Positions 11,362 through 26,053 of a stretch of DNA of 64,000 nucleotides are shown here, piece after piece. How positions within the stretch are numbered: position 1 is the stretch's first letter; every line of letters starts with the position of its first letter. A program made the translations under genes and the position numbers. The stretch is taken from the NCBI GenBank assembly GCA_001899315.1, contig MOYA01000001.1, positions 2,208,599 to 2,272,598 of the forward strand. The letters are read 5' to 3'. The notes below the pieces were generated by a model that saw only the letters and a program-made list of their open reading frames with translations, ran no database searches and had not been told where the DNA came from. The DNA comes from Candidatus Obscuribacter phosphatis (GTDB lineage Bacteria > Cyanobacteriota > Vampirovibrionia > Obscuribacterales > Obscuribacteraceae).

Positions 11362-13521
11362 ATGACAGCTCAAGATAGCGAAATACAAGCAGGTGCAAGA
11401 CAAACCGGTCTTTGCAACCAGCCCGAGCCAGGCCTCTCGAAACAAGAGAGTGAAGCCACTAGTCAAGCCTGTCAAGAAATAGACAATAAGCCGCAGACTG
11501 CTCGCCAGATAGTGCTGGCGGGCAATCCAAACGTAGGCAAATCAGTTATTTTCAACGCCCTCACCGGCGCCAACGCCGACGTTTCCAACTATCCCGGTAC
11601 CACAATCGATATTGCCCGGGGCAAACTAGGAAACGATCTGCTCTCCGACACACCGGGTGTCTATGGCTTATCGAGCTTCAACGATGAAGAGCGCACCGCC
11701 ACATCGATGATTCTCAAGGCAGAAATAGTGATAAACGTTATTTCAGCCCTGACCTTAGAAAGAGACCTCTTTCTCACCCTGCAGCTCATAGACTTGGGTA
11801 AACCGATGCTTTTGGTGATAAACCAAACCGATGAAGCCAAAAACCGCGGCATGCAACTCGATATCAACAAATTGAGCGAAGAACTAGGGCTAAAAGTAAT
11901 CAGCTGCGTCGCGGTAGAAAACCTAGGCATCGACGAAATCAAAAACAGTTTGTCACTGGCAGCAATCGGCAAGTGCATAGATGGTGCAGCCGAACAACTC
12001 AAAACACTCATGCCCTTTGTAGATGAGGGCACCATATCTAGAGGCGAAGCCCTGCTCTTGGCCGAAGGAGACGAGGACATCATCGGCGCGGTGAAAGCTA
12101 GAGCACCGCAGATATTTGCAATAGATGTCGCAGCGGGCTCAGCCAAAACAGCCATTTATAGCCAAAGGCGCAAAAAAGTCAATGAGCTAGCCGAAAAAGT
12201 GGTAGCGCGAAACAAGCACGGACAAAATCTTTCGACCAAGCTCGGCAGACTTTTGCTGCACCCTCTTTGGGGCTCAATAATTTCAATTGCCGTCTGCTAT
12301 TTGATTTTCTATCAGATGCTAGGCGTTTGGATTGCAGGCAATCTAGTCGATCTGACCGAAAAGAAAGGTATGAAGGTCTACTATGAGCCAGTGGTGCGCC
12401 GTGTTGCCGCTAATTATTTTCCCTGCTCTATAGAAGCGCAGGGAAAGACTTGGGTCTTCGACAAAGGCACAAAAGAAGAACCGGCTAAACAAGCCGAACT
12501 AGACCAAGCTATTAGACAAGTTCCAGGCAATGAAATTGCTTTTGATTTTTGGCACCACCACAACTGGCTTGCCGCCATCGGTAATACCATAGTCGGTGAC
12601 TACGGCTTAGCCACACTAACTGTCACCTATCTGCTCGGACTGCTCATGCCCCTGGTGATTGGCTTTTATCTAGGACTTTCGCTAATGGAAGATTCTGGCT
12701 ATCTGCCCAGACTGGCAGTACTAGTCGACAGACTAATGAACAAAATTGGTTTGAATGGACGAGCAATTATTCCACTCATACTTGGTCTCGGCTGTGTCAC
12801 CATGGCCACTATCACCACCCGACTTTTGACCAGCCGCAGAGAAAAAATCATCGCCACAGCTTTACTGGGGGTGGCTATACCTTGCTCAGCACAGCTTGGA
12901 GTGGTCTCGGGCACCTTAGCCAGAGCCGGAGGAGCAGCCGCCTGGGCTGTTTATCTCACCTTGGTCTTTGGCATCTTAGCCTTGACCGGCCTAATGCTGA
13001 ACGCGATTTTGCCCGGGCGCTCAAGCGGCTTGCTTATTGATTTGCCGCCCATGAGACTGCCTCGTCTCAATAATGTGCTCAAAAAAACCTGGAAGAAAAG
13101 CTGGAATTTCTTGCTCGATGCCATCCCGATGTTTTTTCTGGCTGGCTTTGTGGTCAGCCTGGCTGAGATGTCGGGTTTGTTGCAGCTCTTTATGAATCTG
13201 CTTAGCCCGCTCGTAGTGTCTTGGCTGAATTTGCCGGCCGATCCGCGCATTCCCACCACATTTATATTAGGTATAGTGCGCCGCGACTTTGCCTCTTTCG
13301 GCATTTCCGATATTCCGCTAACGGCTGTACAGGCAGTTACGGCGATGATTGTCATTACGCTTTTCGTGCCCTGCATTGCCACAGTGGGCGTGATGATTAA
13401 AGAGCGCGGTCCTAAAATCGCCTTCACCATCTGGATTGGTTCCTGGCTGGCAGCTTTCGCCATTGGCGGAATAGTGGCCAGGGTTTTACCCTTTTTCTTC
13501 AACCCGCTGGGCATTACTTAA
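11362..13521 (+). CDS. feoB: Ferrous iron transporter B
   Basis: 719 aa. The GTPase domain carries G1 GNPNVGKS (residues 54-61), an NYPGTTIDIARG switch region, G3 DTPGVYGL and G4 NQTD. A linker and a polytopic membrane domain with two gate-type halves follow; FILGIVRRDFASFGISD is the conserved second gate segment. FeoB imports Fe(II) across the inner membrane under low-oxygen conditions. An N-terminal extension of about 45 residues rich in Gln, Ser and Glu precedes the G domain. No FeoA or FeoC gene is adjacent, and the extension does not look like FeoA. A Shine-Dalgarno-like AAAGAG lies about 8 nt before the ATG. The gene is divergent from the M16 peptidase gene with about 120 nt between. 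Confidence 0.95.
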   Translation: MTAQDSEIQAGARQTGLCNQPEPGLSKQESEATSQACQEIDNKPQTARQIVLAGNPNVGKSVIFNALTGANADVSNYPGTTIDIARGKLGNDLLSDTPGVYGLSSFNDEERTATSMILKAEIVINVISALTLERDLFLTLQLIDLGKPMLLVINQTDEAKNRGMQLDINKLSEELGLKVISCVAVENLGIDEIKNSLSLAAIGKCIDGAAEQLKTLMPFVDEGTISRGEALLLAEGDEDIIGAVKARAPQIFAIDVAAGSAKTAIYSQRRKKVNELAEKVVARNKHGQNLSTKLGRLLLHPLWGSIISIAVCYLIFYQMLGVWIAGNLVDLTEKKGMKVYYEPVVRRVAANYFPCSIEAQGKTWVFDKGTKEEPAKQAELDQAIRQVPGNEIAFDFWHHHNWLAAIGNTIVGDYGLATLTVTYLLGLLMPLVIGFYLGLSLMEDSGYLPRLAVLVDRLMNKIGLNGRAIIPLILGLGCVTMATITTRLLTSRREKIIATALLGVAIPCSAQLGVVSGTLARAGGAAAWAVYLTLVFGILALTGLMLNAILPGRSSGLLIDLPPMRLPRLNNVLKKTWKKSWNFLLDAIPMFFLAGFVVSLAEMSGLLQLFMNLLSPLVVSWLNLPADPRIPTTFILGIVRRDFASFGISDIPLTAVQAVTAMIVITLFVPCIATVGVMIKERGPKIAFTIWIGSWLAAFAIGGIVARVLPFFFNPLGIT

Positions 13522-13538
13522 GGTTACAAAATATTGGA

Positions 13539-13564
13539 CCTGGCTAAACCTTGCCCCAGCCAGG
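13539..13564 (+). terminator. Hairpin downstream of feoB
   Basis: CCTGGCT (13539-13545) and AGCCAGG (13558-13564) form a 7-bp stem with a 12-nt loop, 18 nt after the feoB stop. It is followed by CAAAAG, not a T-run, so termination would be weak or factor-dependent. Confidence 0.4.
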
Positions 13565-13580
13565 CAAAAGAAATGATAGT
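13551..13580 (+). promoter_or_regulatory. Possible promoter of tRNA-His
   Basis: TTGCCC (13551-13556), an 18-nt spacer and GATAGT (13575-13580) each match the consensus at four positions. The start point would be about 12 nt before the mature tRNA 5' end. The match is modest and overlaps the feoB hairpin. Confidence 0.35.
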
Positions 13581-13598
13581 ATCTAGATCTCGCATTAT

Positions 13599-13675
13599 GG
13601 CAGGCGTCGCCAAGTGGTTAAGGCCCCGGATTGTGGTTCCGGTATGCGGGGGTTCGAGTCCCCTCGTCTGCCCCA
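13599..13675 (+). tRNA. tRNA-His(GTG)
   Basis: The full cloverleaf can be folded. The acceptor has eight base pairs (13599-13606 with 13665-13672): the extra G at 13599 pairs with C73 at 13672, the identity element peculiar to tRNA-His. The anticodon stem CCGGA/TCCGG (13626-13630, 13638-13642) encloses loop TTGTGGT with anticodon GTG at 13633-13635. The T arm contains GTTCGAGTC. CCA (13673-13675) is encoded in the DNA. A stable hairpin follows at 13703-13729. The gene borders a small accessory patch, but no duplicated 3' tRNA end that would mark an integration site was seen downstream. Confidence 0.96.
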
Positions 13676-13702
13676 TTTTCTTTTAGTAGATATCGAGAAA
13701 CT

Positions 13703-13729
13703 CGCTAGTTCATCTTTTCGGAACTAGCG
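13703..13729 (+). terminator. Terminator of tRNA-His
   Basis: CGCTAGTTC (13703-13711) and GAACTAGCG (13721-13729) make a perfect 9-bp stem with a 9-nt loop, followed by TTTCCTGCTTTTTG. It lies 28 nt after the encoded CCA. Confidence 0.7.
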
Positions 13730-14010
13730 TTTCCTGCTTTTTGCTTGATGTGCTACTTTCTCTCACGCTGCAACCTGAATATTGAAGTATCTGCTAACTG
13801 TTTGCCTTCGGTTGTCGTTATACTCGGCGGTGGCGCTGTCTATCCAACCGGTCTAATGTCGAACCAGAGTGGCCATCGTTGAAGGACCGAGCAATTTTGC
13901 AACACACGGAGGCGGAAATCCTTCAGTTTCTTTTGAAATTATGACAAGGTTAGAGAATGAACAACCGTTATTCTGCGCACCTAGGCTGCCAGGTTGCCAG
14001 ACTCACTTGC
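13730..14010. other. Gene-poor spacer between tRNA-His and the two-gene unit
   Basis: No convincing gene is seen. One open stretch from a GTG at 13869 to a stop at 14016-14018 would encode 49 residues with a HGGGNPSVSFEI segment. It has no upstream Shine-Dalgarno and is preceded by an in-frame stop, so it could be a decayed gene fragment. The stretch differs from the dense packing elsewhere in the window, which fits a tRNA-adjacent site of gain and loss. Confidence 0.4.
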
Positions 14011-14043
14011 TTTACTAACCAAGTAGTGTATATGTATTATACA
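14011..14043 (+). promoter_or_regulatory. Promoter with overlapping operator-like palindrome
   Basis: TTTACT (14011-14016), an 18-nt spacer and TATTAT (14035-14040; 5 of 6) form a promoter candidate for the two-gene unit. The dyad TGTATA-TGTAT-TATACA (14027-14043) is perfect in both arms and covers the -10, so a dimeric repressor binding there would block the polymerase. Confidence 0.5.
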
Positions 14044-14084
14044 AACAGGTATAACTGGACCGGTATCTCTTGCAGGAAAAACAA

Positions 14085-14519
14085 GTGAAACAGACTAATG
14101 CTGAAGTGTCTAGATTCTGGCGGGAATTTGATGAATCGATCAATAACCTTCAAAGCCTTGCGCTCGAAGACGAAGAAATTACCACGCCGAATGAATTTCT
14201 GATTGAAGCTACGAAGTTCTTTGTTGCCAATCTGCTGGCAGACCATAAGAAGTTAAAACGCCCTGGTTTCCACATTTCTGAAGACGGATTTGTTAGTTTG
14301 ATTTGGCGCAAGGGAGAAAGTTCCCGTCTAGACGTAGTTTTGTTTTACGAGCCGTCTGATGATACTGTGTCTGCTAAAATCATTTACAGCAACAAGAAGA
14401 ATGTAGAGTCTCAATTAGTTCCCTTGAGCGGCTGGAATCGAGCAAAAAGCCCCACGGAGCAGACCTTAAGTTTAAGGATTGCTTTAGCTCGAAAATTCGA
14501 GCTAGATCCTGCTGCATAA
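14085..14519 (+). CDS. Small protein, first gene of a two-gene accessory unit
   Basis: 144 aa from a GTG at 14085 with AGGA seven nt upstream; a TTG at 14070 is an alternative. No signal peptide or membrane segment. The N-terminal half is helical (a REFDESINNLQSLALEDEE segment). The C-terminal half has a conspicuous DGFVSLIWRKGESSRLDVVLF stretch around residue 70: a beta-rich pattern of the type DG-x-V-x-L-x-W followed by acidic-hydrophobic strands. I have seen this pattern in small uncharacterised proteins that are encoded next to a second small gene, as here. The partner starts 14 nt downstream. The function is unknown; a toxin-antitoxin-like or other paired role is speculation. Confidence 0.7.
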   Translation: MKQTNAEVSRFWREFDESINNLQSLALEDEEITTPNEFLIEATKFFVANLLADHKKLKRPGFHISEDGFVSLIWRKGESSRLDVVLFYEPSDDTVSAKIIYSNKKNVESQLVPLSGWNRAKSPTEQTLSLRIALARKFELDPAA

Positions 14520-14533
14520 ATTTGGAATTAGCG

Positions 14534-14971
14534 ATGAAGCTATACCGAGTCATTGCCCGCAGACCCAGAGAAACTGAAGAGCCAGTTCCAGCGGATCTTA
14601 AGAGACGTCAAAAACAAGGCATCTACATCGAGAATGGAATTTCCGTTTGGCGCTCAGATAAAGTAAGTAGCTATCAATCAATTCTGAAAGTAAAACTTGG
14701 ACGTAAGGCAAAAAACAATTACCGCTACGGAGTTTTGTCTTGTGAGGTCCAATCTCTGCTTTCTATGGGCTACCATGTAAAACTTGACAAAGAACACGTG
14801 AATATTCGCTGCCCAGACTGCGATATGGCTAGTTTGCCCGATATTTGCAAAAGTACAAAAACTGCATGTGCTCTTGATTTAGGTAATAGTTTTGAGCATC
14901 TTCTAGTTCTTCTCAGAGATTTCAAAACTGTAATTCCGGTACCCAAGACTTCTAACACGAGAACCAAGTAG
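14534..14971 (+). CDS. Small protein, second gene of the two-gene accessory unit
   Basis: 145 aa from the ATG at 14534, with GGA seven nt upstream; a TTG at 14522 would add four residues. The N-terminus is strongly basic (RVIARRPRETEEPVPADLKRRQKQ), followed by GISVWRSDKVSSYQSIL and a region with one CPDC pair near residue 95. The arrangement of an Arg-rich start, a GxSV motif and a later GY-x-V stretch resembles the partner protein in small uncharacterised gene pairs. Cys residues at about 95, 98, 107 and 114 might bind metal. It shares the promoter and operator of the preceding gene. No enzyme motif is apparent. Confidence 0.7.
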   Translation: MKLYRVIARRPRETEEPVPADLKRRQKQGIYIENGISVWRSDKVSSYQSILKVKLGRKAKNNYRYGVLSCEVQSLLSMGYHVKLDKEHVNIRCPDCDMASLPDICKSTKTACALDLGNSFEHLLVLLRDFKTVIPVPKTSNTRTK

Positions 14972-15251
14972 ATGCCGACAGAGTTCTAGGCAATGAGATT
15001 CACCGATATCTAAGAAAGCAGTATTCAACTGATTGTGAGTAGCCTGCCGACTCTTTTCACCTATCGGCACCAGCGGATCAGCTTTAGAACCAAAAGCATA
15101 ATACAACCGGCCCTTAGGCCTAGAGCTCAAAGACCAGCCCAGACCTCCAGAAACACCTGCCACCTTATACCCTTTGCAGGCAATCCGAAAGCACATCTGC
15201 TAGTATGAGACTGCCTTAGATTGTGCAGTTTCAGCCTCGCAGGAGCTAATC
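14972..15251. other. Spacer with a doubtful minus-strand ORF
   Basis: About 280 nt. A minus-strand frame (15196 to 14903) could encode 97 residues with a SGGLGWSLSSRPKGRLYYAFG segment, which reads like protein, but it lacks a Shine-Dalgarno and its end overlaps the preceding plus-strand gene by 69 nt. It may be a remnant. The last 11 nt hold the AGGAG used by the DUF4279 gene. Confidence 0.4.
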
Positions 15252-15713
15252 TTGACCACACAGGTTTCAGACCACGAAAATGCTATAGACACAAACCCTG
15301 AGAGGGTTAGAGCCACTTTACGCATTTATCATCCGGAACTCAATCCAGAAGAGATCACCCGCCTGATGCAGGTCAAACCGACCATGTCTTGGACAAAGGG
15401 CGACGATGCCTATGGCTGGACTAAAAGACCGGGGAAGAAGGCACCATCGGGCGGCTGGCTTTTGAGCAGCCGACAGAAAGTGAAAAGCAATAACGCTATT
15501 GCCCACCTAGATTGGCTTCTAGACCAACTTACCGGCTCGGCGTCGGTCTTGAAGCGCCTGCAAGAACAAGGCTTTATCGTCGATGTCGTGGTCGGCTGGC
15601 ATGCCACTTCTTGGAACACTACGCCAGCTCTTACCCCTGAAATTATGCGTCGACTGGCGAACAATCATCTGCCAATTTGGTTCGACGTCTATCTCTACGA
15701 CGAAGAAAACTAA
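15252..15713 (+). CDS. DUF4279 domain protein
   Basis: 153 aa from a TTG start, chosen because AGGAG (15241-15245) lies 6 nt upstream. The protein follows the DUF4279 plan: a RATLRIYHPELNPEEITRLM start, PTMSWTKGD, then a GGWLLSSRQKVKSN segment, a HLDWLLDQL helix and a C-terminal strand pair ending DVYLYDEE. The biochemical role of the family is unknown; members are small soluble proteins often found in accessory regions. It stands alone here, 280 nt after the two-gene unit and convergent with the WD40-like gene. Confidence 0.8.
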   Translation: MTTQVSDHENAIDTNPERVRATLRIYHPELNPEEITRLMQVKPTMSWTKGDDAYGWTKRPGKKAPSGGWLLSSRQKVKSNNAIAHLDWLLDQLTGSASVLKRLQEQGFIVDVVVGWHATSWNTTPALTPEIMRRLANNHLPIWFDVYLYDEEN

Positions 15714-15748
15714 GTTACCTAGCTAAGAGAACTTCCTAGGTCTCAAGT

Positions 15749-16567
15749 TTACCGATAGCCGCCGCCATACTGAACATCGGCTATTTTCTTGAACTTTCTC
15801 GGGTCCCAAAGATATGTCCACTGTTCGGTGGCAACCAACAATGTAGAGCCGTCGGGGCTGTACATACAAGCTCTAATTGGATACTCATGGGCGATGGTGC
15901 CAATCATCTGACCGTCTGAAATTCTCCACAAGGCGCAATTGCTGCCGTCCAAGACGGCAATCTGTGAAGAATCAGGGCTGATGACCAGCGAAGCAATGCG
16001 ATTTGAAAGAGGAATCTTGGTGAGCAGCAAGCCCTCAATCGAAGACCAAATTTGGATACTATCGGTGGTGACAGCAATGAGATAACGTCCGTCTAGACTG
16101 ACAATCAGCTTAAGCAGTTGGCTTTGCAAATCGCACTGTTTGCGAAATTCGCCAGTTGCCGACCAGACTCTAAGCCAGCTATTGCCGCCGGTGACAATAA
16201 AAGAACCGTCCCGAGCATAAGACATCCAGGTGATGGCCGAACCATGTTGCAGAGCCAAAAGTTGAGAACCGGTATCGGCACGCCAGAGCGATGCAGTGTC
16301 ACCAGATACGGTTACGAAATTTTTGCCGGAGGGGCTCATCAATAACACCTTCGAGCCGGCAATATAAGGCACCATTGCGCTATGATCATTGGTGGTGTTG
16401 CGCACCGGCATGCCGCCGGTTGGGTCGTCTAAATAAAGGGGAATCTTGTTGCCAAATACGACGGTGTTAAATTCGTTGACTTGGGCAAAAGCTGAGGGAG
16501 CACCGGCGAAAAGCAGCGACGATAAGGCCGCAAATTGCAAAAATTGGGAATGACGGCTTTTTCTCAT
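15749..16567 (-). CDS. Secreted WD40-like beta-propeller protein
   Basis: 272 aa from the ATG at 16567, preceded by AGGGG at a spacing of 7. The first 28 residues are a signal peptide ending ...APSAFAQ. The rest consists of repeated blades of the WD40/YVTN type: LLMSPSGKNFVTVSGD, MSYARDGSFIVTGGNSWLRVW, VSLDGRYLIAVTTDSIQIW, ISPDSSQIAVLDGSNCALW, YSPDGSTLLVATEQWTYLW. About five or six blades are visible, so it may oligomerise or be a partial propeller. Such proteins are scaffolds for protein binding. Its start codon region abuts that of the divergent PPK2 gene, so the two share control sequences. Confidence 0.82.
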   Translation of the reverse strand: MRKSRHSQFLQFAALSSLLFAGAPSAFAQVNEFNTVVFGNKIPLYLDDPTGGMPVRNTTNDHSAMVPYIAGSKVLLMSPSGKNFVTVSGDTASLWRADTGSQLLALQHGSAITWMSYARDGSFIVTGGNSWLRVWSATGEFRKQCDLQSQLLKLIVSLDGRYLIAVTTDSIQIWSSIEGLLLTKIPLSNRIASLVISPDSSQIAVLDGSNCALWRISDGQMIGTIAHEYPIRACMYSPDGSTLLVATEQWTYLWDPRKFKKIADVQYGGGYR

Positions 16568-16646
16568 GACAATGCCCCTGATTGATAAAGTCTTTCGCTG
16601 TGGCATAAGGATAGTTGAAAGCGGTGAGAAAATGAAAGAGGTAGCC

Positions 16647-17639
16647 ATGGCTCAAAACAAAAATGGTCAGACCGGCAACGCTAACCTTGAGGTAACGGGA
16701 GTTACTTTTGTGCAAGATGATAATGAAAGTGCCAAGCAAGACACAGCGGTCAACCAAGATAAGGCCAGGAAGCAGAATATCAAGAAAGCATCTTTTCAAC
16801 TAAGCCCCGAAGACCTAGGTCGACTTAATACCAATAAAGGCTTGCTGCACCTTCTCAAAGCCAAAGACATCAGGGTGCGTGATGTACTGGAAGAAATCAA
16901 GTACGAAGAAGAGCTGATCAAGCTGCAAATAGAACTGGTCAAACTGCAGCGCTGGGTGCAAAACAACAACAAGCGCGTGGTTGTCATATTCGAGGGCAGA
17001 GACGCTGCCGGTAAGGGCGGCACAATTAGAAGATTTACCGAACACCTCAATCCACGAGCGATGCGAGTAGTAGCCTTGCCTAAGCCCACCGAAGCCGAAA
17101 AAGGGCAGTGGTACTTTCAACGCTATACGGTGCAATTGCCCAATCCGGGCGAAATAGTCTTCTTTGACCGCTCCTGGTATAACCGTGCCGTGGTCGAACC
17201 GGTAAACGGCTTTTGCACCAAAACCGAATACAACCGCTTTATTCAGCAGGTTCCCGAGTTTGAGCACATGCTCTACGAAGACGGCATCACCTTAATCAAA
17301 TTCTGGTTCTCTATTTCAAAAGAAGAACAGGAAAAGCGCTTTGAATCGAGAAAAGTCAACCCGCTTAAACAATGGAAGCTGAGCCCAATTGACCAAACCG
17401 CCCAAGACAAATGGGAACTCTACACCCACTACAAAGAAGAGATGTTCAGCAAGACTCACACCTCTTATAGCCCCTGGATTTTGGTGAAAGCCAACAATAA
17501 ACTGCGGGCGAGGCTGGAGAGTATCAGGTATGTCCTCAATCTCTTGCCCTACGAAGAGAAAAACGACGGCAAAGTAAGGCTCTGCCCAGATCCAAACATT
17601 GTCAGCCGCTTCCACCGTAACGTCATCAAGATTGATTGA
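16647..17639 (+). CDS. ppk2: Polyphosphate kinase 2 family protein
   Basis: 330 aa from the ATG at 16647, which has AGAGG 5 nt upstream; in-frame ATGs at 16632 and 16566 are alternatives, the last overlapping the divergent gene. The core holds Walker A GRDAAGKGG (about 117-125), a TEHLNPRAMRVVALPKPTE segment, and Walker B plus lid FFDRSWYNRAVVEPVNGFC. These are hallmarks of single-domain PPK2 enzymes of the ADP- or GDP-phosphorylating class, which use polyphosphate as phosphate donor in the cytoplasm. The N-terminal 50 residues are polar and likely disordered. With the Pit transporter 13 kb away, it fits an organism that stores polyphosphate. Confidence 0.93.
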   Translation: MAQNKNGQTGNANLEVTGVTFVQDDNESAKQDTAVNQDKARKQNIKKASFQLSPEDLGRLNTNKGLLHLLKAKDIRVRDVLEEIKYEEELIKLQIELVKLQRWVQNNNKRVVVIFEGRDAAGKGGTIRRFTEHLNPRAMRVVALPKPTEAEKGQWYFQRYTVQLPNPGEIVFFDRSWYNRAVVEPVNGFCTKTEYNRFIQQVPEFEHMLYEDGITLIKFWFSISKEEQEKRFESRKVNPLKQWKLSPIDQTAQDKWELYTHYKEEMFSKTHTSYSPWILVKANNKLRARLESIRYVLNLLPYEEKNDGKVRLCPDPNIVSRFHRNVIKID

Positions 17640-17683: not shown

Positions 17684-19057
17684 ATGAGCCGGGCCAAAGA
17701 CCTCTATACAACCGAAGCAGTGCTTGCCATGGCACCGGATGCCGCTTCTGCCAAGAACGGCAGCGACCTGGCAAACAGCCGCAAATGGCAAAACCTTGGT
17801 GCGGCCGAAAACTGCCTCTGGGGTGAATGTCAAGGCAGCGGCAGCAAGCCTTACCAGACCAGAATCGATCTAGGCGGTCCAGCCTTCAAATGTTCTTGTC
17901 CAAGCCGCAAGTTTCCCTGTAAACATGGGCTCGCCTTGCTGCTAATCGCCATAAAGGCAGATGAACTATTCAATGTGGGCGAGCCGCCTGACTGGGTGAG
18001 TGAATGGCTGGCCGCCCGAGGCGAAAGAGCAGTCAAGAAGAAGGAAAAAGAAGAGAAACCGAAAAGCGAAGAAGAACTGCAAAAGCAAGAAGCTTCAAAA
18101 GAGAAGAGAAAGCAAGGCCGCATTGACAACGTTGAAAGCGGCATCGATGAACTTGTCACCTTCATGAAAGATGTGCTTAGGCAGGGTACCGCCCAAATTC
18201 AAAACAAGCCGATAAGCTACTTTCAAGAGAGAGCAGCAAGATTAATTGATGCCCAGGCGCCGGGTCTGGCTAATAGAGTCATTGATCTATCTGCCACTGC
18301 TGGCGGTGACTGGCAAGGCAATATGCTTGCTGGGCTCGGGCAACTCTTTCTTATATGCAAAGCCTTTGAACAATCCAAAAGCAATACGGTGCCTGAATTG
18401 CTCAAGCAAGACATCTATGGTGCAATAGGCTTTAACCAGTCGCAAGAAGAATTGCTAAAAAATGAAGAAAATCGCCTTGATGGGCTTTTCTGCCTACTCG
18501 GTCAGACAGTGACGCTGGAAGACCGACTGCGGGTTCAGCGCAGCTATTTTTATCATATAGAAAGCGGCAACCTAGCTCTTGTCTTAGACTTCGCCCATGG
18601 TATCAGCCCTTTTGCTCGGGTAATGGTTCCGGGCAGCTTTTATCAAGCCTGTCTGGTTTACTTCAAGTCTTCCACTCCGCTCAGAGCCCTTATCAAAGAC
18701 ATTGGTTCCAGGCTGGAAGACTTTCATTTCGACTGGCAATTAAAAGGCGAAACAGTAGAGAGCGCAAGACATTTTCTTAGCCGTTTGCTTAGCGAGAATC
18801 CCTTTATAGACAGCCGTCCCATAATTTTCTCGCGCTGCAGAGTTTTCCATCTTAACCATAACTGGTGGCTTAGAGATAAAGAAGACAATCACCTGCCCAT
18901 AAAGACCGGCGCGCTCGACCTTTGGCCGCTTGTTGCCTTTAGCGGTGGTGGCGAGATTGACTTACTGGCAGATTTTGACGGACAGACAGCCGTGCCAATT
19001 TTAGCCGCTCATAAGGGTGAAATCTTGCGACTGGAGGCAAAGAAAACCAGTCTATGA
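17684..19057 (+). CDS. SWIM zinc finger protein (YehQ-like), first gene of a five-gene operon
   Basis: 457 aa. The SWIM motif CxCx6CxH is at Cys70, Cys72, Cys79 and His81, inside a FKCSCPSRKFPCKHGLALLL segment. A Lys/Glu-rich coiled stretch (about 117-145) follows, then an alpha-helical C-terminal region of about 300 residues without recognised motifs. SWIM fingers bind zinc and mediate protein or nucleic acid contacts. The next gene overlaps this one by 4 nt (ATGA), and the whole set of SWIM, DUF5691, MoxR, DUF5682 and VWA genes is co-directional and coupled. E. coli YehQ is a SWIM protein next to the MoxR-type YehL, so homology of the modules is likely. The role is unknown. Confidence 0.85.
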   Translation: MSRAKDLYTTEAVLAMAPDAASAKNGSDLANSRKWQNLGAAENCLWGECQGSGSKPYQTRIDLGGPAFKCSCPSRKFPCKHGLALLLIAIKADELFNVGEPPDWVSEWLAARGERAVKKKEKEEKPKSEEELQKQEASKEKRKQGRIDNVESGIDELVTFMKDVLRQGTAQIQNKPISYFQERAARLIDAQAPGLANRVIDLSATAGGDWQGNMLAGLGQLFLICKAFEQSKSNTVPELLKQDIYGAIGFNQSQEELLKNEENRLDGLFCLLGQTVTLEDRLRVQRSYFYHIESGNLALVLDFAHGISPFARVMVPGSFYQACLVYFKSSTPLRALIKDIGSRLEDFHFDWQLKGETVESARHFLSRLLSENPFIDSRPIIFSRCRVFHLNHNWWLRDKEDNHLPIKTGALDLWPLVAFSGGGEIDLLADFDGQTAVPILAAHKGEILRLEAKKTSL

Positions 19058-20694
19058 ACGGCATTCAAGATAAGAAATCGGTGCAGGAAACCTGGCAAGC
19101 TCTTAAAACCAGCTGCATTCTCGGCACGCGCCAGAGCCACAGCCTGCCTGCCGGCAGTGGTCTATTGCTTAAGAAATTGGCTTTTTTGGAAGAAGAACAA
19201 AACAAAGGTCTCTGGCAGTCGACCGAAGATCTGATGCTGGCTAGGCTCGCTCTAGCTTCTCTGGCGCTAAAGCTGAAAGCCCCGATATCAGATGCTCTCA
19301 ATCAAGAACTCAAGCAAGTAAGTTTATCGGCGGCAAAAGAAGATGACAGAGCGGAAGCGCCGCCACGAGCCCTTTCGGTCTTAAATCAATTGCTTACCGA
19401 CACATCTAATGTTGGGCAAAAGCTTATCGGCGATTGGCTCAGCCTCTGCGCCGAGCATAACTATGTCGTAAGCAGACAGAGATTACCTCATCTGCTTGAA
19501 CTCTTTAGAGACAAACCATCTTTGGTGGCAAAGTTGAAAGCTTGCGGCGGCGAGCGCCTTCGCTTTCTCTTGAGCCAAAATCAAGATTGGCACAAGCTCC
19601 TTGAAAATGAAGCTCTGGCCACCGAGAGCATAGAAGAGCTGACGGCGCTCTTTCAAGAAGGCACAGCCAAAGAGAGAACCGACGCCCTTTTGAGATTGAG
19701 AAAGCTTGATTTTACCCAGGCCGAATCTCTTATTGAAAAATGTTTTGTCAAAGAGACTCTAGAGTCAAGGGTCTCAATCTTGCTTGTGCTGGAAAAAAGC
19801 CTCTGCCAGGCAGACCAAATCTTTTTACAAAACAAAGCCCTTGCCGACAAGCGCAAAGAAGTGCGAGAACTAGCCGGGCTTTTGCTCTGCCGGCTGTATA
19901 GCTCGTCTTATAGCCAAAAACTAGTTTCTATTCTCAGGCAGCGCATCAAATTTGGGGAGAAATTTGAGCTTGATTTGAACGATATCGAGAAAGATATCGT
20001 CGACTATGAAGACCTGGTCGTCAAACAAAACACCATGGGAACTTTAGGTACAAAAGCACGCATCGTGCTGAATATGCTGGCACTTGCCGACCCGCTCATT
20101 TTTAAGACTTTCTGTGAGCCGGAAACTCTTGTGCAGCATATAAATGCCAGCGAGTGGCGAGAACCACTTTTATATGGTCTCTTTCAATGCTTGGCAGATT
20201 ATCGCAAAAGCCCCGAAAAGACCCAAGAGCGAGACCAAATTGTCAGTTATTTGACTGATTGTTTGCTTGAAAGCAATGCCGACAATCTTAGAGAATCAAG
20301 TCATGGTATCAATTTTCTAAAATCGCTCAGCCAAGAAAAGACCGAAAAACTTGTCTTGTCGCGTCTGCCTAGATGGAGCGGTAGCGGCGGTAATGCGGCA
20401 CCGCGCCTAGATATGTGGAACTATCTCATTCATCACGATGATGACTGGAGCAAGGATTTTTCTAGAACCATCGCTCAATTTATCATCAAGGAATTGTCTG
20501 AGAAGGTGCCTGCCCTTGGTTATGAGTTTACGATGAACGCAAAACAATTCGCCGCGCGCATGCACCCCGACACGGCAGAATTGGTTCCAGCCCTGCATGC
20601 AGCGGCTATAGACAAAGATTACTTTGCGCAATCGGTTAGTCAGATGGCGGAAATAATAGCTTTAAGGAAAGAACTGCAGGAAGCATTCAAATAA
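19054..20694 (+). CDS. DUF5691 family protein
   Basis: 546 aa, almost entirely alpha-helical and rich in Leu, Lys and Glu, reading like HEAT-type helical repeats. The N-terminal WQALKTSCILGTRQS stretch resembles the start of DUF5691 proteins, which I know as companions of SWIM/MoxR/VWA clusters. No catalytic motif, signal peptide or membrane segment is seen. The ATG overlaps the stop of the SWIM gene (ATGA), and 10 nt with a strong AGAGGAAAG separate its stop from the ATPase gene. A scaffold or substrate-adaptor role for the ATPase is plausible from shape and position only. Confidence 0.78.
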   Translation: MNGIQDKKSVQETWQALKTSCILGTRQSHSLPAGSGLLLKKLAFLEEEQNKGLWQSTEDLMLARLALASLALKLKAPISDALNQELKQVSLSAAKEDDRAEAPPRALSVLNQLLTDTSNVGQKLIGDWLSLCAEHNYVVSRQRLPHLLELFRDKPSLVAKLKACGGERLRFLLSQNQDWHKLLENEALATESIEELTALFQEGTAKERTDALLRLRKLDFTQAESLIEKCFVKETLESRVSILLVLEKSLCQADQIFLQNKALADKRKEVRELAGLLLCRLYSSSYSQKLVSILRQRIKFGEKFELDLNDIEKDIVDYEDLVVKQNTMGTLGTKARIVLNMLALADPLIFKTFCEPETLVQHINASEWREPLLYGLFQCLADYRKSPEKTQERDQIVSYLTDCLLESNADNLRESSHGINFLKSLSQEKTEKLVLSRLPRWSGSGGNAAPRLDMWNYLIHHDDDWSKDFSRTIAQFIIKELSEKVPALGYEFTMNAKQFAARMHPDTAELVPALHAAAIDKDYFAQSVSQMAEIIALRKELQEAFK

Positions 20695-20704
20695 AGAGGA
20701 AAGA

Positions 20705-21787
20705 ATGGACGCCCAATTACTGAGAGAACATGCCGAGAACCAGTACAAAGAAGAACTGGATGCGCTAAGCAGCGTAGATAAGAAGCAAAGACCACCGCGC
20801 TGGAAAATGTCACCGTGGGCGGTGATGACTTATTTGATGGGCGGCAAACTTGAGAACGGCTTTGAGATAAGCCCCAAATACATAGGCAACAGACGCACGA
20901 TCGAAATTGCTGTGGCCACTCTCACCACTGACCGGGCCCTCCTGCTGTTGGGGCTGCCGGGCACAGCCAAGACCTGGGTTGCTGAACACCTGGCAGCGGC
21001 CATCAGCGGCGACTCCACCTTGCTCATTCAGGGCACAGCCGGCACCTCGGAAGAGTCAGTGCGCTACGGTTGGAACTATGCCAGACTTTTGGCTGAGGGA
21101 CCATCGATGCAGGCGCTTGTGCCAAGCCCCATGATGGAAGCGATGAAGGCAGGCAAGACCGCCCGCATAGAAGAGTTAACCCGCATACCAGCTGACGTGC
21201 AGGATACTCTTATTACAATTTTGTCTGAAAAGACTTTGCCTGTGCCCGAGCTTGGCACCGAGATTCAGGCGGTCAAGGGCTTTAACGTCATTGCCACCGC
21301 CAACGACCGCGACAAAGGTGTGAACGATCTTTCCAGCGCCCTCAAGCGCCGCTTCAACACGGTGATTCTGCCGGTGCCCGCCACCATAGAGGAAGAAATC
21401 GATATTGTTACCAGACGCACCGAAGCCATGGGTAAAGCCCTGGAGCTACCGGCAGAAAAGCCCGCCATAGAAGAAATCACCAGGGTTGTGCAGATTTTCA
21501 GAGAGCTTAGAAGTGGCGCCACCCTGGACGGCAAAACAAAATTACGCTCGCCTTCAGGCTCGATGAGCACCGCTGAAGCAATTTCGGTGATGAATAACGG
21601 ACTGGCTCTCAGTGGTCATTTCGGCGACGGCGCCCTAAAAGCAGAAGACCTGGCGGCGGGTATAGTGGGAGCCGTGGTCAAAGACCCGGTGCAAGACAGC
21701 CTGGTCTTGAAAGAGTATCTAGAAACAGTTGTAAAAGAGCGTGATGACTGGAAAGACTTTTATCGCTCCATAAGGCACTTGCTCTAA
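20705..21787 (+). CDS. MoxR-family AAA+ ATPase (YehL-like)
   Basis: 360 aa. Walker A GLPGTAKT is at about residues 82-89. The Walker B region is replaced by the MoxR-type TARIEELTRIPADVQDTL, sensor 1 is in FNVIATANDRD, and the arginine-finger segment SSALKRRFN follows. A helical lid domain ends the protein. MoxR ATPases act with VWA-domain partners as chaperones that load metals or remodel complexes. Here the VWA gene is two genes downstream. AGAGGAAAG precedes the ATG, and the stop overlaps the next start (TAATG). Confidence 0.92.
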   Translation: MDAQLLREHAENQYKEELDALSSVDKKQRPPRWKMSPWAVMTYLMGGKLENGFEISPKYIGNRRTIEIAVATLTTDRALLLLGLPGTAKTWVAEHLAAAISGDSTLLIQGTAGTSEESVRYGWNYARLLAEGPSMQALVPSPMMEAMKAGKTARIEELTRIPADVQDTLITILSEKTLPVPELGTEIQAVKGFNVIATANDRDKGVNDLSSALKRRFNTVILPVPATIEEEIDIVTRRTEAMGKALELPAEKPAIEEITRVVQIFRELRSGATLDGKTKLRSPSGSMSTAEAISVMNNGLALSGHFGDGALKAEDLAAGIVGAVVKDPVQDSLVLKEYLETVVKERDDWKDFYRSIRHLL

Positions 21788-24240
21788 TGATATTCGGTAT
21801 CAGGCACCACGGACCTGGCTCGGCAGCCAGCTTGGAAAAGGCTCTGAGAGAATTTGAGCCCGACATAGTATTGATAGAGGGACCGCCCGAGGCCAACCCG
21901 CTTATCAAATATGTTGCGCCAGGCAGTGAACTGATACCACCGGTGGCATTACTCGCCTATGCCGGCGATGATGCCAGACAAGCTTGTTACTATCCCTTTG
22001 CCGAATTTTCGCCTGAATGGCGAGCTATGCTCTATGCCAACGAAAAAGGCTTGCCCTGCCGCTTTATCGATCTAGCGCAAAGCAATTGGCTGGCCCTTTC
22101 TAAACAACTGAAAGAAGAGAAAATAGCAGCGCTCAGCCAAACTGAGCTAAATAGCGACCCGAACGCAGAAAATCGAGAGAATCTAGAAGCTCCAGAAGTT
22201 TCAGACATTTTGCCAGATGCTGAAAGCGAGACAGATAACGAGGACGAAAGCTTAACCAAGCTGGACGACAGCAAAGATAAAACACCTCCGATACATAGAG
22301 ATCCAATCGGCACCCTGGCTAGAGCCGCCGGTTATGAAGACTCTGAAGTCTTTTGGGAACAGTTGATTGAACAAAGAAAACAGAAAGAAGGCAATGCCTG
22401 CGGCATATTTTCGGCACTTCTTGAGGCGATGAAAGCCTTGCGCGCGCAAGAGCTTGAGAGCAAAGAAAATGGCGATCTCAACCAAAAGAAATTAGACTAC
22501 GAAGACGAAGAAGACAACCTAATTGAACCTTTGCGTGAAATAGCAATGAGGCAAAATATAAGGCAAGCAAAAAAAGAGGGCTTTAAAAAACTCGCCATCG
22601 TATGCGGTGCCTGGCACGCCCCCGCCCTTACTGATGAAATAATCGAAGGTAAAGGACAAGCCAAAATAGACGCTGCCGCCCTCAAGGGGCTACCCAAACA
22701 AAAACTGGAAACCACCTGGATTCCCTGGACAAATGGCAGACTCTCTTTTGCCAGCGGCTATGGGGCGGGCATAACAGCGCCCGGCTGGTACGAACATATC
22801 TTTTCTACCGAAGGCGACCCCACCTTGCCCTGGCTGGTCAAGGCTGCCAGCTTTTTGCGCGCGGAAGATCTAGACGCTTCATCAGCCCAGGTTATTGACG
22901 CCGTGCGCCTGACGGAAGCCCTCACTTCTCTAAGAGAACTGCCGCATCCCGGGCTTTCTGAAATAAACGAGGCCATACTTGCTTGCCTGCTTGGCGGCAA
23001 CCCTTTACCTCTAAGTTTGATCCAAAACAAGTTGCTTATTGGTGAAAAACTCGGGCAGGTGCCGCCTGACATACCAGGCACACCGCTGACAAATGACACC
23101 TTGCGTCAAAGCCAAAAACTTAGAATAAAGCAAGAAGCACTGAGCAAGACGCTAGAGCTTGACTTGCGCAAACCCCTAGACTTAGAACGCAGCTACTTTC
23201 TTAATAGGCTGAATATATTGAACGTAGCTTGGGGAGAGAAGCAAAAGAACCGCATCAAAACGAGCACCTTCCACGAAAACTGGAAACTTGAGTGGAGACC
23301 AGAAATGAGCCTGGCTCTAATTGAAGCTTCAATATGGGGCAAGACTCTCATCGAAGCCTCTTCGAACAAACTCATGGATGCAGCGACAAAATGTACTTCT
23401 TTCAAAATTTTAGTAGTGCTGCTTGGGCAAGCACTGGAAGCCAATCTCGAAGAGTCTATAAAGGGCTCGATGCGCCTAGCCAGCGAGCGCTCGAATGCCA
23501 GCCTGGATGTTTCCGAGCTGATGAGCGCCTTGCCTGTTCTGGTGAGCATTTCTCGCTATGGCAATGTCAGAGAAATTGACGCCGAACTGGTGAAAAGTCT
23601 GGTCGGGCATCTGGCCGAAAAGGTAATTATCAACCTAGAAGCAGCACTGGTCAGCCTTGATGACGATGCCGCCCGCTCTATGATGCGACTGATTAGTGAC
23701 TGCGAAGAAGCTCTGAGAATTTACGAAGAAGATAGATATATAGGCGAACTCTATACTTTACTGGGCAGATTAGCTCGGAAGCCTTCTATTCACCCACTTA
23801 TCAGCGGCAAAACCACTAAATTATTGTTTGATGCCCGCCGACTCAATGAAGAAGAGGCTCGTACAATAATGCAGTTTAGTCTTTCAAAAGCATCAAGCCA
23901 TGCCTATAGCGGTATGTGGCTAGAAGGATTTCTCACCGACAATGCCCAAGTGCTCATCCATGACCATACTTTCTTTCAAGTGGTGGACAGTTGGCTGCAA
24001 AGTCTAGAGACTGAACAGTTTCAAGAGCTCTTGCCTCTATTGCGAAAAGTGATGGGACCTTACAGCATCGCCGAAAAACGAAATATTCAAGAGCGTGCCC
24101 TCAGTCAAACAAATTGGCAAGCCAAAGAGGAAGAAGCAGCGAGCGATAACGATCTTTTGCTCTTGCCGGTACTAGATAAGGTGCTCAGTCTTTTGGGGGC
24201 AAATCTAGCCGATCGGCAGACTGATGAGGTGCAAGCATGA
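21787..24240 (+). CDS. DUF5682 family protein (YehM-like)
   Basis: 817 aa. It opens with the family signature IFGIRHHGPGSAASLEKAL (His7, His8) followed by PDIVLIEGPPEAN (Glu31). That layout, with conserved His and Glu near the N-terminus, recalls the EreA/ChaN/TraB-type fold, in which such residues form the active site, so a hydrolase is possible. Residues about 115-165 are an acidic low-complexity insert. A second conserved segment, AIVCGAWHAPAL, near residue 278 carries another His. The remaining 500 residues are alpha-helical. No signal peptide is present. Start and stop codons overlap both neighbouring genes, implying fixed stoichiometry with the ATPase and the VWA protein. Confidence 0.83.
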   Translation: MIFGIRHHGPGSAASLEKALREFEPDIVLIEGPPEANPLIKYVAPGSELIPPVALLAYAGDDARQACYYPFAEFSPEWRAMLYANEKGLPCRFIDLAQSNWLALSKQLKEEKIAALSQTELNSDPNAENRENLEAPEVSDILPDAESETDNEDESLTKLDDSKDKTPPIHRDPIGTLARAAGYEDSEVFWEQLIEQRKQKEGNACGIFSALLEAMKALRAQELESKENGDLNQKKLDYEDEEDNLIEPLREIAMRQNIRQAKKEGFKKLAIVCGAWHAPALTDEIIEGKGQAKIDAAALKGLPKQKLETTWIPWTNGRLSFASGYGAGITAPGWYEHIFSTEGDPTLPWLVKAASFLRAEDLDASSAQVIDAVRLTEALTSLRELPHPGLSEINEAILACLLGGNPLPLSLIQNKLLIGEKLGQVPPDIPGTPLTNDTLRQSQKLRIKQEALSKTLELDLRKPLDLERSYFLNRLNILNVAWGEKQKNRIKTSTFHENWKLEWRPEMSLALIEASIWGKTLIEASSNKLMDAATKCTSFKILVVLLGQALEANLEESIKGSMRLASERSNASLDVSELMSALPVLVSISRYGNVREIDAELVKSLVGHLAEKVIINLEAALVSLDDDAARSMMRLISDCEEALRIYEEDRYIGELYTLLGRLARKPSIHPLISGKTTKLLFDARRLNEEEARTIMQFSLSKASSHAYSGMWLEGFLTDNAQVLIHDHTFFQVVDSWLQSLETEQFQELLPLLRKVMGPYSIAEKRNIQERALSQTNWQAKEEEAASDNDLLLLPVLDKVLSLLGANLADRQTDEVQA

Positions 24241-25454
24241 GCGACGACAAACAAAATCAAGTCGAGAAAGAGCATAAAGACGAGAAAGAACGTAAAGACG
24301 AGAAAGAAAGAATTAGACGCTGGCGCCTCGCCCTCGGTGCCGGCAGTGAAAGCGGTGCTCATGGTGCTGAAGAATTCGGTTTATCTGCTGATGACCTGAA
24401 TATGGACAACGCCTTGTCTCTGCTCTACGACGACGATGAAAGAAGCAAAAAAGCAGAAAGGTCGGCTGGTTTGGGAGCATCTAGCCCAAGGGTGGCCAGG
24501 TGGCTGGGTGATATTCGCAAATATTTTCCCACCACCGTGGTCTCGGTTATGCAAAAAGATGCCATGGAAAAACTCAACCTAAAAAGCATGCTCACCGAGC
24601 CGGAGTTACTTTCCACCCTCACTCCCGACATAAATTTAGTAGCCACTCTTGCTGCTTTGTCTTCGACTTTGCCGACCAAGAGTAAGAGCACGGCTCGCCT
24701 GGTAGTGAAAAAGGTTACAGACGAACTTAGTCGACGGCTGTCTAATCCGATGAGACAGGCGGTTGCCGGTGCCCTCAACAAGGCGAAAAGAAATAATCGC
24801 CCGAGACATTCTGAGATGGATTGGAATCGCACAATCAGGCTTAATCTCAAGCACTATCAGCCCCAGTTCAAAACAGTCATTCCTGAGCGAAGAGTGGGTT
24901 TCAGTCGTAAAAGATCTAGCCTGAAAGACATCATTATGCTGGTCGACCAGAGCGGTTCGATGGCTACATCTGTGGTCTATGCCAGCATTTATGCAGCAGT
25001 GCTGGCCTCAATCAGCGCCCTCAACACCAAACTTGTCGTCTTTGACACTGCCGTGGTCGATCTTTCAGATAAATTGAGCGACCCTGTCGACATTATCTTT
25101 GGCACCCAGCTTGGCGGCGGCACCGACATCAATAGCGCCGTCGGCTATGTCGAGACTCTCATCACAAGACCTAACGAAACTATTTTGGTCTTGATTAGCG
25201 ATCTTTTCGAAGGGGGTAATCAAACGCAGCTAAAGAAAAAACTCTTGCGTCTGAAAGGCATGGGCGTAAACCTCATCGCCCTGCTCGCTTTAAATGACGA
25301 CGGGGCACCGGCTTTCAACCCAGATCTTGCTGCTTTTATGGCGCAAATCGATGCGCCTGCTTTTGCCTGCACACCAGATCAGTTTCCCGAAGTAATGGCA
25401 CTGGCTCTCAACCAAGGCGATATAGCAGGCTGGATAGCAAGAGAAAAGCAATAG
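24237..25454 (+). CDS. VWA domain protein (YehP-like), last gene of the five-gene operon
   Basis: 405 aa. The first 25 residues are a charged Lys/Glu repeat, followed by a helical region and a von Willebrand A domain with a complete MIDAS metal site: DQSGSM (Asp237, Ser239, Ser241), GGGTDINSA and LISDLFEGG. The metal-bound site usually recognises an acidic residue on a partner. MoxR ATPases typically operate on such VWA proteins or their cargo. Its ATG overlaps the DUF5682 stop (ATGA). Its own stop lies 2 nt from the stop of the convergent PEBP gene, so the operon ends without room for a terminator. Confidence 0.9.
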   Translation: MSDDKQNQVEKEHKDEKERKDEKERIRRWRLALGAGSESGAHGAEEFGLSADDLNMDNALSLLYDDDERSKKAERSAGLGASSPRVARWLGDIRKYFPTTVVSVMQKDAMEKLNLKSMLTEPELLSTLTPDINLVATLAALSSTLPTKSKSTARLVVKKVTDELSRRLSNPMRQAVAGALNKAKRNNRPRHSEMDWNRTIRLNLKHYQPQFKTVIPERRVGFSRKRSSLKDIIMLVDQSGSMATSVVYASIYAAVLASISALNTKLVVFDTAVVDLSDKLSDPVDIIFGTQLGGGTDINSAVGYVETLITRPNETILVLISDLFEGGNQTQLKKKLLRLKGMGVNLIALLALNDDGAPAFNPDLAAFMAQIDAPAFACTPDQFPEVMALALNQGDIAGWIAREKQ

Positions 25455-25456
25455 CT

Positions 25457-26053
25457 TTACTTGCGCTGATAGGTACCCATAAGCTCGCCGAAAGCCAGGA
25501 TGTGACCGGCGATGGCTTTCTTGAACTGCTCTTTATCGGCGCCGGCGCTAAGAGGCAGACGGCTGTCGAGGGCATAAACTCTAAAGTAATATCGGTGGGG
25601 TTTGCCTGCCGGCGGCGAGGGTCCGTTATAGCCGGCTTTATCAAAGTCATTTTTGCCCTGCAAAAAACTGGCGGTCTTATACGACTTTTCCACGCCCTCT
25701 TTCAATGCTTGAGTGGAAGGAGCCAAATCATAAAGCATCCAATGCCACCAAGTGCCAACTGGGGCATCAGGATCTTCGCAAGAAACAGCGATACTGACCG
25801 TGCCTTTTGGTACAGCGCTCCATCTTAGCTCGGGTGAAACATCTTGACCATCGGCGGTAAAACGAGCTGGTATAGGCGCATTAGCAGCAAAAGCCGACGT
25901 AGTGAGATTGAGGCGCTCGGCAGCCCGAGCGGCAGGACCCGCCACCATAGGTGGTGCAAAGAGAGCTAAAGCAGAGAAAGCAGAGAAAGCAAAGAAAACA
26001 GAGAGAGCAATACGCCCTGCCCTGACAAATGGCGCCGCTAGTAATCTTTGCAC
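25457..26053 (-). CDS. Secreted YbhB/YbcL-type PEBP (Raf kinase inhibitor-like) protein
   Basis: 198 aa from a GTG at 26053, supported by GGAGGT inside the end of the upstream gene. A long signal-like segment (about 1-44) precedes the PEBP domain: GQDVSPELRWSAVP, the ligand-site CEDPDAP, then GTWWHWMLYDL and a C-terminal GHILAFGELMGTYQR. PEBPs bind phosphate-bearing or anionic ligands in a small pocket; the role of periplasmic members is unclear. The upstream secreted protein gene abuts it directly, with no spacer, so the two form an operon. Confidence 0.88.
   Translation of the reverse strand: MQRLLAAPFVRAGRIALSVFFAFSAFSALALFAPPMVAGPAARAAERLNLTTSAFAANAPIPARFTADGQDVSPELRWSAVPKGTVSIAVSCEDPDAPVGTWWHWMLYDLAPSTQALKEGVEKSYKTASFLQGKNDFDKAGYNGPSPPAGKPHRYYFRVYALDSRLPLSAGADKEQFKKAIAGHILAFGELMGTYQRK

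Follow-up and report, generated by a model that had tools for sequence, protein, structure and literature searches.

A widespread MoxR-VWA operon encodes DUF5682, a predicted member of the TIKI/TraB/Ere superfamily

RESULTS

A tightly spaced five-gene operon in Obscuribacterales

The window is a 64,000-nucleotide stretch of a Candidatus Obscuribacter phosphatis contig (MOYA01000001.1). It contains five co-directional genes, whose open reading frames all lie on the + strand at the coordinates given in the original prediction. The genes, their main motifs and domains, and the upstream neighbor are as follows.

16566..17639, +, PPK2 polyphosphate kinase, upstream neighbor (PF03976, 1.4e-97)
17684..19057, +, gene 1, SWIM zinc-finger protein, 457 aa (PF04434, 1.5e-5)
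17891..17926, +, SWIM zinc ligands C70-x-C72 ... C79-x-H81 (sequence; invariant in the ortholog alignment)
19054..20694, +, gene 2, DUF5691 protein, 546 aa, HEAT-like helical repeat (PF18944, 2.7e-56)
20705..21787, +, gene 3, MoxR AAA+ ATPase, 360 aa, assigned by sequence to the YehL subfamily (AAA_5, 5.3e-37)
20951..20974, +, MoxR Walker A GLPGTAKT (G83-K89 pattern in 61 orthologs)
21787..24240, +, gene 4, DUF5682 protein, 817 aa (PF18934, 5e-222)
21787..22806, +, predicted TIKI/TraB/Ere-superfamily domain of DUF5682, residues 1 to ~340 (VIA-align, hhalign, invariant residues)
23083..24237, +, C-terminal region of DUF5682, mostly helical and repeat-like (AlphaFold2 secondary structure)
24237..25454, +, gene 5, CoxE-type VWA protein (VWA_CoxE), 405 aa (PF05762, 2.3e-46)
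24945..25202, +, VWA MIDAS D237-x-S-G-S241, T296, D322 (kept in 59 to 61 of 61 orthologs)

Both the family names (SWIM, DUF5691, AAA_5 of the MoxR type, DUF5682, and VWA_CoxE in Pfam) and the four junctions agree with the original prediction; the junctions are a 4-nt ATGA overlap, a 10-nt gap, a 1-nt TAATG overlap, and a second 4-nt ATGA overlap. Spacings between about -4 and +20 nt, with a 4-nt overlap or a short gap as the modal value, are seen again in other phyla, so the coupling of the five genes is not a matter of chance.

The operon starts 44 nt past the PPK2 gene and ends 2 nt ahead of a convergent gene at 25457. The host genome is 5.5 Mb in size, and its nearest named relatives among the matches listed are Candidatus Obscuribacterales. 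PPK2 lies directly upstream of the operon, with a gap of 3 to 105 nt, in 11 Obscuribacterales loci, and was seen beside it in no other phylum among the loci examined. We considered PPK2 as a sixth member of the system and rejected it because the adjacency is restricted to Obscuribacterales. Thus, PPK2 is probably outside the system, a lineage-specific neighbor that is possibly co-transcribed with the operon. Farther upstream, a divergent WD40 beta-propeller gene (window 15749-16648) has a start that overlaps the annotated start of the PPK2 open reading frame by ~80 nt; one of these annotated starts is therefore probably wrong.

The five families travel together

Loci were located with DUF5682 alone in a scan of genome contigs, and the best 80 of at least 589 relatives were examined; gene orders were counted in these 80 plus 20 loci from relatives, two sets that partly overlap. 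The order SWIM-DUF5691-MoxR-DUF5682-VWA was found in 60 loci and, with an added DUF4132, in 8 more. Most of the other loci are contig ends that cut the operon, variant operons, or dispersed genes. Among the 80 loci, the full order spans Cyanobacteria, Chloroflexota, Bacteroidota, Planctomycetota, Acidobacteriota, Verrucomicrobiota, and Proteobacteria, among others, and all five genes stand in the same order in Deinococcus as well.

We scored DUF5682 and DUF5691 by family-model cutoffs in 146 genomes drawn evenly as a phylum sample. Both families exceeded their cutoffs in the same 8 genomes and in none besides, and these 8 also contain SWIM and MoxR orthologs; VWA is present in 7, the genome without it being 73% complete. 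The chance of an 8-for-8 concordance in 146 genomes is ~2e-13, a value without phylogenetic correction for eight genomes that represent five families. In two genomes, G061 and G121, the genes of the five families are widely separated along a single contig, and linkage therefore does not account for their co-occurrence there. Among 60 close relatives, every genome with DUF5691 also carries DUF5682. Three lineages encode SWIM and DUF5691 as a single fusion protein: an Isosphaeraceae metagenome-assembled genome, another planctomycete, and a Hymenobacter plasmid. The five proteins also diverge in step, with r of 0.76 to 0.93 between their pairwise divergences, a supporting observation made without a species-tree control.

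Thus, the five genes almost certainly constitute a single functional system. The original prediction had taken this view and made it depend on co-occurrence of the families elsewhere, which the gene order in most of the 80 loci, the shared distribution across the phylum sample, and the SWIM-DUF5691 fusion bear out.

Some loci carry additional genes. In Deinococcus (positions 11756-11992 of the locus) and Hymenobacter (9362-9973), genes of 78 and 203 aa, respectively, without a Pfam match are found between MoxR and DUF5682. Four Bacteroidota loci (Chitinophaga and Flavihumibacter; 11373-16040 in locus L126) have, on the strand opposite VWA, a gene for a DUF4011/MTES_1575 superfamily 1 helicase-nuclease whose end is 1 nt away from VWA.

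The zinc ligands C70, C72, C79, and H81 of the SWIM protein are kept in 60/60 aligned orthologs, and the Cys/His set is thus intact, as had been read from the window. In three cyanobacterial genomes (G061, G121, and G170), the SWIM ortholog matches only from about residue 141, with open frames of 320 to 391 aa; the zinc finger therefore appears to be absent from one cyanobacterial family in which the other genes are retained. The DUF5691 profile matches alphaRep/HEAT chains. It has no detectable relation to YehQ and a weak one to DUF4132, through shared HEAT-like repeats.

DUF5682 has a probable TIKI/TraB/Ere-type N-terminal domain

The full-length AlphaFold2 model of DUF5682 (pLDDT 87, pTM 0.82) has an alpha/beta domain at the N terminus and is mostly helical toward the C terminus, a part for which only weak structural matches, to HEAT/ARM-type helical repeats, were found. 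Because the helical repeats swamped the full-length fold search, the N-terminal domain was also modeled alone (pLDDT 82, pTM 0.81). Its top VIA-align matches are three depositions of the TraB family protein of the ciliate complex IV (Z of 8.8 to 8.9 over ~185 residues), followed by the Ere-family proteins BcR135 (6.0) and EreC (5.8), and the next, unrelated match falls to 3.7; the full-length model matched the same ciliate TraB chain separately (Z of 9.0). The modeled domain thus shows the superfamily's core fold, built on a parallel beta-sheet. Among viral structure models, the best match is to a TraB family protein of a giant virus, with a probability of 0.98. Foldseek E values for the N-terminal domain are weak when taken alone (best 0.22 in the PDB and 3.1e-3 among viral models), and the superfamily call by structure rests on a predicted model of DUF5682.

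Profile comparison points the same way. With hhalign, a 98-member DUF5682 profile matches PrgY/TraB with 71% probability (P of 3.6e-5), in register over GxxH...PD-x-x-x-E, compared with no more than 2.5% for any of 250 random proteins and 0.1% for the reversed alignment. DUF5682 matched neither GumN-type nor Ere alignments in hhalign, a negative that has no weight because TraB versus Ere likewise fails. Searching PDB sequences with the profile of DUF5682 gave no real match, and Pfam at an E value of 0.01 returned PF18934 alone, matching neither the TraB_PrgY_gumN model PF01963 nor Ere. DUF5682 is best placed nearest to TraB within the superfamily and, because the PF01963 model does not match, outside Pfam's TraB family; the membership holds at the superfamily level only.

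The conserved residues fit this placement. H7 (window position 21805) and E31 (21877) are present in 97/97 sequences, and R250 (22534) and H277 (22615) in 98/98; D95 and G274 are also invariant, and all six hold in every covering sequence across three operon types, including E. coli YehM. The superfamily constellation of a first GxxH, a Glu after strand 2, an Arg, and a second GxxH is present as H7, E31, R250, and G274-x-x-H277. In EreC, the active set consists of H50, E78, and H289, and R261 stabilizes the transition state (PMC7979712); the order and spacing logic of H7/E31/R250/H277 therefore match those of H50/E78/R261/H289, with the difference that the additional E47 of EreC is replaced by I5. 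The original prediction had called the N terminus His/Glu-rich; what is conserved is instead a set of specific residues in the motif GIRHHxP...IEGP...REaxM...CGxxH.

The predicted structure, the profile match, and the constellation together make it very probable that the N-terminal domain belongs to the TIKI/TraB/Ere superfamily, albeit without a Pfam TraB or Ere match and with two features that set it apart: a large helical-repeat extension and a gene beside that of an AAA+ motor. Some TIKI-fold proteins are inactive or, as with ChaN, bind heme rather than working as hydrolases, so the fold is no proof of activity. Judged by its invariant active-site residues, DUF5682 is probably catalytically active, and the earlier idea that it is the enzyme of the system gains support.

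The ATPase and VWA protein resemble known motor pairs

The GxPGTAK motif of MoxR is kept in 61/61 orthologs, in line with the Walker A originally noted; within G83-K89, only L84 varies (L/V/I). Walker A, E156/E157, sensor N200, and R215/R216 are invariant in the orthologs, and the protein is predicted to form an ATPase hexamer. YehL is one of seven MoxR subfamilies listed (PMC3893208). The window MoxR is 38% identical to E. coli YehL over its full length (366 columns, 7e-77) versus 21% over 144 aa to RavA (E value of 0.009), which by sequence places it in the YehL subfamily and not with RavA. Its Walker B (R154 to R160, window 21164-21184) reads [IV]EELTR, with E156/E157 in place of the usual DE; this is invariant in the 61 orthologs, the EE recurs in YehL, and on this comparison it is a subfamily signature. 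The VWA MIDAS, originally read as complete, is complete: D237, S239, S241, and D322 occur in 61/61 orthologs and T296 in 59/61.

MoxR ATPases act with VWA partners. RavA-ViaA of E. coli is one MoxR and VWA pair, but beyond the low similarity of its ATPase, the window VWA gave no match to a ViaA fragment. NorQ-NorD and CoxD-CoxE likewise combine a MoxR AAA+ protein with a CoxE-type, MIDAS-containing VWA protein, and by analogy the window system likely uses the same motor principle; it differs in the MoxR subfamily, in the lack of a metalloenzyme operon around the genes, and in three extra conserved partners, among them the predicted TIKI-fold protein.

The analogy raises the alternative of a maturation system, in which MoxR-VWA, like NorQD, CoxDE, and CbbQO, inserts a metal or activates a client, and DUF5682 is the client or a metal carrier and not a motor-gated protease. 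To our knowledge, a DUF5691-SWIM scaffold is part of none of NorQD, CoxDE, and CbbQO, and no metalloenzyme recurs beside the operon in the 80 loci. Established MoxR-VWA pairs do mature metalloenzymes (PMC13036017, PMC3893208), the window VWA is of the CoxE type, and TIKI enzymes have been described as metalloproteases (PMC12329661). The pair may just as well act in the maturation of DUF5682 or on a different client; however, EreC (PMC7979712) and RRSP (PMC6254334) are described as metal independent, and DUF5682 therefore need not require a metal. Maturation is, on balance, a real alternative, if a somewhat unlikely one.

Operon variants and the E. coli yehLMPQ operon

Around the MoxR-DUF5682-VWA core, two further forms were seen among relatives. 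One, DUF4132-MoxR-DUF5682-VWA-SWIM/YehQ-like, is the form of E. coli yehI-yehL-yehM-yehP-yehQ; in the other, a 371-aa protein without a Pfam match precedes MoxR-DUF5682-VWA. The 371-aa family takes the place of SWIM-DUF5691 upstream of the core in five Obscuribacterales loci. In eight Chitinophagaceae operons of the window type (type A), a DUF4132 gene with HEAT repeats lies 9 to 72 nt after VWA, which ties type A operons to those of the E. coli type, where DUF4132 comes first.

The set of a YehL-subfamily MoxR, DUF5682, VWA, and a SWIM protein is present in both the window and the E. coli loci. The original prediction had likened the whole operon to yehL/yehM/yehP/yehQ, a kinship that holds in part. 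MoxR, DUF5682 (26% identity; PF18934, 2.4e-98), and VWA (33% identity to YehP) are true homologs in the same order. A SWIM-type protein is also encoded in the E. coli operon, but YehQ is only an analog: its gene is at the 3' end, the protein is longer, and BLAST gives no alignment with the window SWIM protein. DUF5691 is absent from E. coli, where DUF4132 genes precede the operon. yehLMPQ was matched in 5301/5426 E. coli genomes, with 5320/5322 places chromosomal, and from these comparisons it is the same system core in reduced form, carried as a core chromosomal operon. E. coli DGF-298 is without yehLMPQ, making the operon dispensable in the laboratory (PMC10652928).

This core status bears on whether the genes serve in phage defense or biological conflict as one of the MoxR-vWA ternary systems of Kaur et al. 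(2020), in which case DUF5682 would be the effector. Such systems are defined by a MoxR-vWA pair plus a third component (PMC7159879), and the operon shares the pair, further components, and an effector-like hydrolase candidate; a few loci also sit on large plasmids. However, none of their third components is found here: Pfam detects no VMAP, iSTAND, or beta-propeller partner among the five operon proteins, and the bpMoxR score is under its cutoff (21.3 versus 27 bits). The proteins show conservation and not diversification, with ~74% mean identity across phyla for MoxR, and the system stands outside defense contexts. The search for co-occurring defense genes that the original prediction proposed turned up none recurrent near the 80 loci, and no PADLOC family matched the operon, the sole weak match being a cross-match to the MoxR P-loop. 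A defense system was rejected on the PADLOC result, the neighborhoods, and the core status in E. coli; a conflict role of the ternary kind is unlikely, and we rate this reading as very improbable.

DUF5682 is essentially absent from viral collections, a scan of viral contigs having found no relatives. One unverified "Bacteriophage sp." entry, a 14-kb fecal scaffold (MT835988.1), encodes a DUF5682 with 28% identity and is probably a bacterial fragment.

The DUF4132 genes that flank Chitinophagaceae type A and yeh-type loci bring in another alternative, that DUF5682 is a catalytically dead scaffold or ligand sensor, as the example of ChaN would allow, within a regulatory or assembly chaperone perhaps tied to the DNA damage response. 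In D. radiodurans, DNA damage induces the DUF4132 protein DRA0166, and LexA regulation has been described for MolR (PMC8533742); the link is suggestive only. Unless there is catalysis or metal binding, full invariance of H7, E31, R250, H277, and D95 in 97 to 98 sequences has no easy explanation, and a dead DUF5682 is accordingly improbable.

DISCUSSION

Our literature search found no paper naming DUF5682 or DUF5691 and no experiment on any member of the five families. Papers on yeh genes gave gene lists only, none assigning a role to YehL, and a broader single-name search returned mostly unrelated matches. The MoxR/VWA kind itself is already known; what is new is the assignment of DUF5682 to the TIKI/TraB/Ere superfamily. 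The earlier interpretation of the operon is supported in part: one system, a relation to yeh confined to the three core proteins, and DUF5682 as the enzyme all gain support, and a physical complex with client selection by the SWIM, DUF5691, and DUF5682 proteins is a proposal.

As the best explanation of the five genes as a whole, we propose, with middling confidence, an ATP-regulated hydrolase machine. The MoxR hexamer and its VWA partner would be the motor and coupling pair, as in NorQ-NorD, where the VWA protein extends a finger into the hexamer pore and the target is remodeled as ATP hydrolysis twists a linker (PMC13036017). SWIM and DUF5691 may together make up one subunit, in which a zinc finger serves as the recognition head and sits on a HEAT-type scaffold, and DUF5682 would carry its hydrolase domain on a helical-repeat body. 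A client held by the SWIM-DUF5691 unit and by the helical body of DUF5682 would be remodeled by MoxR-VWA, and this ATP-driven step would present or unfold the client or switch DUF5682 on; DUF5682 would then cleave a peptide or ester bond via H7, E31, R250, and H277. Here we infer a physical complex, hydrolytic activity, and the direction of coupling or gating; that the MoxR-VWA motor drives or gates the DUF5682 hydrolase is an evenly balanced proposition.

More tentatively, the operon might represent a widespread class of AAA+-gated hydrolases, in which a MoxR-VWA motor is combined with a hydrolase of the TIKI type and a zinc-finger/HEAT receptor for substrates. Such a regulated proteolysis (or esterase) system would be unrelated to Clp, Lon, FtsH, HslUV, and the proteasome and would occur, in the form of yehLMPQ, in almost all E. 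coli. The predicted catalytic fold and the named residues of DUF5682 open both a core operon of E. coli and a system found in many phyla to direct testing by mutation. If the proposal is true, these genes would reveal a new way to couple an ATP-driven remodeler with a hydrolase.
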